The position numbers were made by a program, and so were the translations under genes. A stretch of 64,000 bases of DNA from Buchnera aphidicola str. Bp (Baizongia pistaciae). Its GTDB lineage: Bacteria; Pseudomonadota; Gammaproteobacteria; Enterobacterales; Enterobacteriaceae. Location: positions 372,001-436,000 of the forward strand of contig NC_004545.1 in the NCBI RefSeq assembly GCF_000007725.1. The letters are read 5' to 3'. Under the pieces are notes generated by a model. The model searched no databases, had not been told where the DNA came from, and saw nothing but the letters and a program-made list of their open reading frames with translations. Of this stretch, positions 27,405 to 37,702 are shown one piece after another. The first letter of the stretch is position 1. Each line of letters starts with the position of its first letter.

Positions 27405-28898
27405 CTATGCACTAGTTTTATTACCAAACCAACATATATTTCTAGCAGCCATAATTAACATTCCAGCAGTATTAGAATTTAAATTTTCAATATCTATCAA
27501 ATCATCAATCCCCTGTTCGGCCAAATCTTCTAAACTAAAAATATTTTTTTTTGCTAATTTAAAAGCAAGTTTTTGGTTCATACCTTTTAAATTTAACAAA
27601 TCTTTATGCAATTTACGTTCATTAATTACTTTTTTATTTTCTAACTCTATAGCACATAAAGCCTTTTTTGCACTTTCTCGTATAGAATATGCTAATTCTT
27701 GTGTTATAGAATTAATATTTAGTAATTCATTAAATGGAATGTAAACTAATTCTTCTATAGAAGAAAACCCTTCGTCAATTAAAATATTAGAAATTTTCTG
27801 ATCAATTTTTAAATATTTTGTAAAAATATTTAAAATTTTATCTTTCTCTTCCTGATGTTTTAATTTTAAATCATCTACTGTCATTACATTTATTTCCCAT
27901 CCACTTAATTGAGACGCTAAACGTACATTTTGCCCATTTCTTCCAATTGCTTGAGCTAAATTGTTAGAATCTACAGCTATATCAATAGTATGACGATCTT
28001 CATCTAATACAATAGATGAAACTTCAGCTGGAGCCATTGAATTAATAATGAATTGTGCTGAATTTTTATCCCATAATACAATGTCTATTCTCTCACCACA
28101 CAATTCACTAGAAACTGCTTGAACGCGTGCACCACGCATACCTACACATGCTCCAACTGCATCAACTCTTTTATCATTACTTTTTACAGCTATTTTAGCA
28201 CGTGATCCTGGATCGCGTGCTGCTGATTTTATTTCAATAATTTCTTCTCCTATTTCTGGAACTTCAATTTTAAATAATTCAATTAACATTTCTGGTTTAG
28301 ATCGAGTTACAAATAATTGAGCTCCGCGAGATTCGGGGTAAATAGCATATAACACACCTCGAACACGATCACCTAATCTAAAGTTTTCTCTAGGAAGCAT
28401 ATCTTCTTTCAAAATCAAAGCTTCAGCATTATTACCTAAATCTAAAGTAATACTTTCTCTATTTATTTTTTTTACTATTCCTGTTAGAATCTTTCCAAAA
28501 TATTTCCTAAATTGTTCTACAATCATTGCTCTTTCTGCTTCACGAACTTTTTGAACAATAACTTGTTTAGCAGTTTGTGTTGTTATTCTATCAAATGTTA
28601 CAGAAATCATCTTATCTTCTATATAATCATTAACTTTTACTGTCACGTCTTCAAATTTAGCAGCTTCTAAAGTAATTTCTTTAGTTGGTTGTAATACTTG
28701 ATTAACCACTAACCATCGACGAAACGTTTCAAAATTTCCATTTTTTCTATTTATTTTAACTCGTACATCAATTTCTTGATCGTATTTTTTCTTAGTAGCA
28801 ATAGCTAATGCGCATTCTAATGCTTCAAAAATTTTTTCACGAGGTAACGATTTTTCATTAGAAACCGCTTCTACAACTGCTAGAATTTCTTTATTCAT
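27405..28898 (-). CDS. nusA: Transcription termination/antitermination factor NusA
   Basis: A 497-residue RNA polymerase-binding elongation factor (E. coli 495). The N-terminal polymerase-binding domain is followed by an S1 domain (about 135-200, [19 protein letters not shown]), two KH domains ([15 protein letters not shown] and [16 protein letters not shown]) and C-terminal acidic repeats of helix-hairpin type. It heads the nusA-infB-rbfA-truB-rpsO-pnp cluster. In E. coli rimP and metY precede nusA; neither is here, and the upstream 240 bases instead hold a long inverted repeat. Confidence 0.96.
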
Positions 28899-29011
28899 CT
28901 GAATTCATATCTCTTACTAGTTTCTATTAAAACTATATACTTTCGTAGGTGTTATAATTAAACTTCTTACTATTATTCAAAAATATTAAACTACAAAACT
29001 AAGCTTATTAT

Positions 29012-29099
29012 ATACACTTTCTTAAGATTATTTATAACAATAAAAATCCCCACATCTTTGGGGATTTTTATTGTTATAAATAATCTTAAGAAAGTGTAT
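29012..29099. repeat. 41-bp perfect inverted repeat (probable terminator / RNase III-type hairpin)
   Basis: The arms 29012-29052 and 29059-29099 are perfect reverse complements over 41 bases, separated by the six-base loop CATCTT. The inner part is a canonical intrinsic-terminator core, AATCCCCA with TGGGGATT followed by TTTTATTG on either strand. The outer part extends the stem far beyond what termination needs. It lies 41 bases downstream of tRNA-Leu(GAG) and 113 bases upstream of the nusA start, both on the minus strand. The end of the right arm (GTGTAT) also pairs with ATACAC at 29102-29107. Confidence 0.95.
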
Positions 29100-29140
29100 C
29101 AATACACATAATTAAAATTTTAATACAACAAAAACGTATA

Positions 29141-29226
29141 TACCGAGGACGGGATTTGAACCCGCATACCTAAAAATAGGAACTACCCCCTCAAGATAGC
29201 GTGTTTACCAGTTTCACCACCTCGGC
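29141..29226 (-). tRNA. leuU: tRNA-Leu (anticodon GAG)
   Basis: Folds as a class II tRNA of 86 bases with acceptor stem GCCGAGG/CCTCGGT and discriminator A. The anticodon stem-loop is CTATC-TTGAGGG-GGTAG, giving anticodon GAG, which reads CUC/CUU. The T arm is CGGGTTCAAATCCCG. It closely matches E. coli leuU, which also lies between secG and the nusA operon. No CCA is encoded after the discriminator. Confidence 0.96.
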
Positions 29227-29252
29227 AATATTTGAAATAAATTTGTACTAAC

Positions 29253-29540
29253 TTAATTAGTAGAAGAAAATATTTTTTGATCGTACGTAACAATTCTATT
29301 ATTATAACTTTTATGATAATTAATATTTGATATTATTAAACTCATTAAAAAAAACAAACCAGACAGTATAGCAATAATATAAATTAGCGTATTTTGACTA
29401 CTAAAAGATATAGATATTTGTTTATTACCAATAGTACTAAATGAAGAACTAGAATAACCATATATTCTGCTTTGTATCATAATTAACAAGATTAATAATA
29501 TATCTATCACAACACACATTACTAAGAAAAAATTATACAT
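29253..29540 (-). CDS. secG: Protein-export membrane protein SecG
   Basis: A 95-residue two-helix subunit of the SecYEG translocon. Hydrophobic segments are at about residues 4-21 (FFLVMCVVIDILLILLIM) and 53-69 (LIYIIAILSGLFFLMSL), separated by a Ser/Gly-rich loop. Sequence conservation is low, so the call relies on size, two membrane spans and the E. coli gene order glmM-secG-leuU, which is kept exactly here. Confidence 0.85.
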   Translation of the reverse strand: MYNFFLVMCVVIDILLILLIMIQSRIYGYSSSSFSTIGNKQISISFSSQNTLIYIIAILSGLFFLMSLIISNINYHKSYNNRIVTYDQKIFSSTN

Positions 29541-37473: not shown

Positions 37474-37702
37474 TAATATTTTAATATTATAAATGATGTT
37501 AGTAAAAAGAAATTAACACAAAACACAAATATCATAAATATTTAGTTACATCAATTAATTAGAACGAATTTTATATTTTATTAGAAATAATACATCTCCA
37601 TATGTATTATTTCGAAAACAATTCTATTAATTACTAATTAATATTATTTGTTATTAAAATATAACAAACTTTATATATTATTTTCTAATTTCTTAATTTT
37701 AA

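Follow-up and report, generated by a model that had tools for sequence, protein, structure and literature searches.

In Escherichia coli, RNase III has two sites in the metY-rimP-nusA leader, which also contains the terminators t1 and t2 (PMC6511841). Its layout of a tRNA, a terminator and then the nusA operon, with a hairpin upstream of nusA, is also seen at the Buchnera locus treated below. Quasipalindrome correction, described at the E. coli thyA hotspot and in lacZ QP reporters, makes imperfect repeats perfect by rewriting one arm from the other, as appears to happen at the locus described here; a strand bias is also reported for it (PMC7202029). Template switching has also been put forward for the origin and maintenance of RNA hairpins (PMC8794818); under that model stems should be perfect, several paired bases should change at a time and G-U intermediates should be few. 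For the mitochondria of Nematomorpha, the portion available of PMC6649704 describes long, perfect inverted repeats in the small genomes of several related species. The locus compared with these systems below lies in the 615,980-bp chromosome of Buchnera aphidicola Bp, which lives in the aphid Baizongia pistaciae (PMC3164680). No earlier description of its inverted repeat was found in the open literature, which does not prove that there are no prior reports, and the available portions of Degnan 2011 and of the Buchnera operon-map paper mention neither nusA nor the repeat.

A 41-bp perfect inverted repeat with a six-base loop had been proposed in the first-pass annotation of this DNA, between tRNA-Leu(GAG) and nusA. 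Both the structure and its placement were borne out: a repeat search and direct inspection of the sequence gave 41 complementary bases out of 41, located after the tRNA and before nusA in the direction of transcription. The gene order on the minus strand is glmM, secG, tRNA-Leu(GAG), repeat, nusA, infB. The relevant features are listed here by position in the window, meaning the whole 64-kb stretch of DNA that was analysed.

27405..28898, minus strand: nusA, the downstream gene, with no rimP between the tRNA and nusA.
28899..29011, minus strand: nusA leader, 113 nt from the repeat to the start codon.
29012..29052, no strand assigned: nusA-side arm, 41 bp, which is the 3' arm on the transcribed (minus) strand (repeat search and sequence).
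29012..29029, no strand assigned: outer 18 bp of the nusA-side arm, mirrored at 29082-29099 and unpaired in the nearest relative, G006.
29030..29081, no strand assigned: inner 22-bp arms common to Bp and G006, with one paired difference.
29042..29069, minus strand: putative terminator core, AAAAATCCCCA / loop / TGGGGATTTTT, with a U-tract at 29046-29042 on the minus strand.
29053..29058, no strand assigned: loop, six bases (sequence, repeat search and RNA fold).
29059..29099, no strand assigned: tRNA-side arm, 41 bp, which is the 5' arm on the minus strand (repeat search and sequence).
29140..29227, minus strand: tRNA-Leu(GAG), separated from the downstream repeat by 40 nt; the gene does not encode CCA.
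29253..29540, minus strand: secG, upstream on the same strand, identified by synteny and aligned to relatives.

Perfect inverted repeats of 41 bp with loops of 3-20 bases would be expected about 2e-15 times by chance in 64 kb of the same base composition. The runner-up within the window has arms of 14 bp, and perfect arms reach at most 21 bp in ten further 20-kb samples (200 kb) of the Bp chromosome, the census comprising the window and these sampled stretches. The RNA of the minus-strand repeat folds at -59.4 kcal/mol (z = -17). A genome-wide search for further copies of the arm, which had been suggested earlier, returned the Bp arm itself and nothing else. A mobile or repeated element of the REP or MITE type was rejected on the basis of this single copy, and the arm of one relative (G002) likewise gave only weak AT-rich matches elsewhere. 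A known RNA family was also rejected, since Rfam at the gathering score matched the tRNA and not the repeat. Elsewhere in Bp, an AT-rich perfect inverted repeat of 21 bp with a 4-base loop is located near the chromosome midpoint (L182:18587-18632, at about 318.6 kb).

The centre of the repeat had been described as a terminator, and a terminator-type hairpin is indeed present. Read along the minus strand, GGGGATTTTT follows the loop on its 3' side, downstream of secG and tRNA-Leu, as in an intrinsic terminator, and cores of the CCCC/GGGG type with A/T tracts recur in most of the relatives. From its sequence, the core is most likely the intrinsic terminator of the secG-tRNA-Leu(GAG) unit and, being symmetric, could terminate in both directions. 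A simple terminator scan of Bp did not flag the core, probably because the rule applied requires a T-run after the stem and the T-run here is paired within the long stem. The further claim that the outer pairs exceed what termination needs is supported. Terminated RNA would lack the outer nusA-side arm, which lies past the U-tract, and the full rod would form only in read-through RNA. Selection for termination probably acts on the core, and the outer arms are probably a by-product. The 113-nt nusA leader probably carries the promoter of that gene; an AT-rich TATAAT-like block upstream of nusA is conserved in most of the sister clade, and a promoter scan of the Bp leader found nothing above chance. 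The metY and rimP genes, which lie between leuU and nusA in enteric relatives, are missing from 28899-29139.

The repeat was then compared across a genus sample of 11 genomes, consisting of Bp and ten relatives; a contig scan with NusA turned up no further Buchnera. A perfect inverted repeat is located between tRNA-Leu(GAG) and nusA in all ten relatives, one of them (G007) by inference, with arms of 22, 33, 54, 59, 61, 62, 63, 65 and 69 bp in the other nine. A plain repeat scan found none in G007, and absence there was rejected because its spacer contains an assembly gap of 102 N inside the palindrome (L008:1373-1474), the flanks of which are perfectly complementary over 22 bases. The L159 locus also has an N gap, with flanks that are not complementary. 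In the nusA tree, Bp and G006 split from the other nine genomes, and the arms within this sister clade are recognisably homologous. In most sister-clade species the repeat starts no more than about ten bases from the 3' end of the tRNA, which could reflect either inheritance or function, and in several relatives the stem starts exactly at the mature tRNA 3' end, compared with the gap of 40 nt in Bp. The tRNA-to-nusA spacer of one relative (G001; L007) is unusually long, at 472 nt, with poly-T runs of more than 20 bases in the nusA leader.

Three causes had been offered for the perfect match of the arms, namely recent formation, gene conversion between arms, and selection. A one-off recent origin is refuted because the repeat is present throughout the genus. 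Copying from arm to arm fits best. By parsimony, at least 65 paired substitutions occurred among eight genomes of the sister clade, a count that depends on the alignment of AT-rich arms. The first-pass annotation had proposed to look for compensatory changes in related strains. Paired changes are present, without intermediates: among 529 arm pairs over ten genomes there are no mismatches and no G-U pairs. Since the arms were detected as perfect repeats, pairs just outside them are uncounted in this figure, and the sequence flanking them is unpaired. In the tRNA acceptor stems of these stretches, 16 of 301 pairs (5%) are G-U, and at that rate the nominal probability of zero G-U in 529 pairs is 3e-13, relatedness being ignored. 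Many of the paired changes are transversions, for which no wobble intermediate is available. Indels are exactly mirrored between both arms, and pairing ends abruptly at their outer edges. Arms that stay identical while substitutions and indels appear mirrored in both are the pattern expected of quasipalindrome template switching. Taken together, sequence comparison supports a reading in which the stem of the secG-tRNA-Leu(GAG) terminator has grown into a long perfect palindrome whose arms would be kept identical by copying between arms at the DNA level, with a rough probability of 0.68.

The direction of copying can be read in one clear case. In G009 the arm extends 10-11 bases into the tRNA 3' end (GTCCTCGGTAA), and this sequence recurs, reverse-complemented, at the outer end of the nusA-side arm. 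The sister genome G008 has a 54-bp repeat that starts just after the tRNA and has no copy of the tRNA end, relative to which the G009 state is derived. Because the tRNA sequence is conserved, the tRNA side must have been the source in G009, and comparison with G008 indicates that in the G009 lineage the arm was shortened and the far arm rewritten to match the tRNA side. GC skew on the plus strand is negative across the whole window, which would make the minus strand the leading strand, so that the tRNA-side arm would be made first and could template the second arm. Quasipalindrome template switches are reported to show strand bias (PMC7202029, citing Rosche 1997), with which the fork direction taken from GC skew agrees indirectly. 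The replication terminus was considered as the site and rejected, the locus being at 401 kb of 616 kb, in a region of steady negative skew and not at the expected midpoint.

The proposed mechanism would start from an ancestral intrinsic terminator ending the secG-tRNA-Leu unit, the stem of which would have grown into a long palindrome in this genus. During replication, the nascent strand would fold back at the hairpin, copy its own first-made arm and then rejoin the template, a switch that would turn any imperfect palindrome into a perfect one. Replication template switching appears to be the likeliest copying route, with the leading strand as its probable usual site; conversion between arms would be an alternative route at the DNA level. 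In E. coli, long palindromes are attacked by a nuclease of which SbcD forms one half. No sbcD was found in any of the 11 genomes by a search that does find E. coli sbcD as a control. Absence of SbcCD is a plausible permissive condition for the palindrome, not a demonstrated cause, and many reduced genomes presumably lack SbcD yet have no such repeat. Exonuclease ExoI, which counters template-switch events, is present in 11 of 11 genomes and counts against the copying reading. So does the finding that only the nusA locus has arms longer than 30 bp in the sampled stretches of the genus, since a general copying process then needs a local reason. Heavy transcription of the tRNA, a stalled fork or an unusually stable core would be candidates.

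More distant genomes suggest where the palindrome came from. More distant Buchnera have mostly short stems at this spacer: no stem of 15 bp or more was observed between tRNA and nusA in most other Buchnera-type genomes examined, and no perfect repeat of 20 bp or more in most of the more distant Buchnera-type and other reduced genomes. In several of these Buchnera-type and other reduced genomes the spacer contains a short hairpin of the usual sort, built on a CCCCG/CGGGG core; one example is the short terminator AACCCCGAAAATTCGGGGTT at this place in G226, a more distant Buchnera-type genome. These short hairpins indicate that the long palindrome probably grew from an ancestral terminator. Three other reduced genomes have terminator-like perfect repeats between tRNA-Leu or tRNA-Met and nusA, as follows.

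L203:6927-6986, G020: 28 bp, the longest perfect repeat in its 20-kb stretch.
L204:10791-10861, G155: 32 bp, the longest perfect repeat in its 20-kb stretch.
L205:10332-10377, G023: 22 bp, the longest perfect repeat in its 20-kb stretch.

A second perfect repeat, with arms of 17-27 bp, is located about 8.3 kb beyond the nusA repeat in six relatives (G002, G003, G005, G007, G009 and G010). Its arms are related but different (for example L196:9575-9638, L197:9094-9147 and L199:9613-9663). In G002, G003 and G010 it lies between rpmA and obgE, and the others were assigned by their position alone; at this site Bp has just a 12-bp hairpin (37584-37613). The copying process may act at more than one strong terminator.

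The arms diverge somewhat less than the downstream spacer (for example 5% versus 11% between G002 and G005), from which it follows that some selection acts on them; this too counts against copying as the whole account. A further reading, doubtful but worth stating, is selection of the symmetry itself: a palindrome with a fixed site and no fixed sequence would be maintained by arm copying and used as a two-way block, as a target of RNase III for trimming the tRNA and metering nusA, or as both. Were this so, a regulatory structure would owe its upkeep to a mutational mechanism co-opted for the purpose. Selection of the whole stem as an unusually strong two-way terminator or insulator, separating the highly transcribed tRNA unit from nusA, is unlikely. 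Such a role would be in keeping with the slower change of the arms than of the spacer, with the conservation of the core in most relatives and with G020, G155 and G023, whose longest perfect repeats lie between the tRNA unit and nusA. The inner 8-12 pairs, however, suffice for termination and the outer pairs form after the release point, and the perfect arms of other terminators in the window do not exceed 14 bp.

It had also been suggested that the repeat is an RNase III substrate controlling NusA expression and trimming the tRNA transcript. As a selective explanation, this would mean that cleavage of the stem in read-through RNA releases the 3' end of the tRNA and determines how much nusA-infB mRNA there is, with compensatory mutations keeping the arms paired. 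Two of the premises held: rnc is intact in all 11 genomes, scoring above the curated cut-off in each, and the E. coli leader upstream of nusA does have RNase III sites (PMC6511841). The stems that begin exactly at the mature tRNA 3' end in several relatives would also fit. A long AU-rich RNA helix tolerates G-U freely, so selection for RNA pairing should have left some G-U pairs, and 529 pairs without G-U or mismatch, together with indels mirrored in both arms, argue against it. In addition, stem length varies from 22 to 69 bp, the Bp stem begins 40 nt from the tRNA, the outer nusA-side arm is absent from terminated RNA, and most other Buchnera-type genomes examined lack a long stem here. RNase III processing of whatever read-through RNA is made is possible by analogy with E. 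coli; the idea that the repeat exists so that RNase III can control nusA is unsupported and, as an account of the arms, improbable.

A selected role of the DNA itself, as a cruciform or fork-pause site for which symmetry is essential and sequence irrelevant, is very unlikely. It would explain why symmetry is retained while sequence changes at a single site of fixed position, but length varies threefold and the palindrome is absent from most of the more distant Buchnera examined. No factor is known to require such a palindrome. An assembly or library artefact at the hairpin, brought to mind by the 102-N break of the G007 assembly exactly here, is scarcely credible given ten genomes in which one site holds different arms, with flanking sequences that differ between the two sides, arm differences that are species-specific and phylogenetically sensible, and G007 gap flanks that agree.

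Arm-to-arm copying at a terminator would bear on how perfect stems arise and survive, insofar as template switching has so far been proposed as their source mostly from single events or reporters. The present locus offers a natural series of eleven genomes with arms of 22-69 bp, in which dozens of paired changes have left no intermediates and one donor, the tRNA end, can be recognised. Such a series would allow the rate, direction and length limits of arm correction to be measured in a lineage without detectable sbcD. It also serves as a warning that covariation without G-U pairs need not indicate a selected RNA structure.

Each of the described systems differs from this locus in some respect. 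The E. coli leader has metY and rimP, both absent from the Buchnera interval, where a tRNA-Leu(GAG) lies upstream and a long, perfect palindrome forms the hairpin. Known cases of quasipalindrome correction are short reporters or single mutations, whereas the Buchnera arms are up to 69 bp long, have stayed perfect through speciation and take in neighbouring sequence, namely the tRNA end. Template-switch hairpins were inferred for microRNAs and rRNA genes, in contrast to one bacterial terminator locus followed across a genus. The Nematomorpha repeats lie in protein-coding genes, according to the portion available of their description, while the Buchnera repeat is intergenic and built on a terminator. 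The parts, a terminator and quasipalindrome correction, are thus already known; their combination in a palindrome that changes in sequence throughout the genus and yet stays perfect in every member is unusual, and a single terminator whose arms keep evolving in concert over a whole genus looks new.
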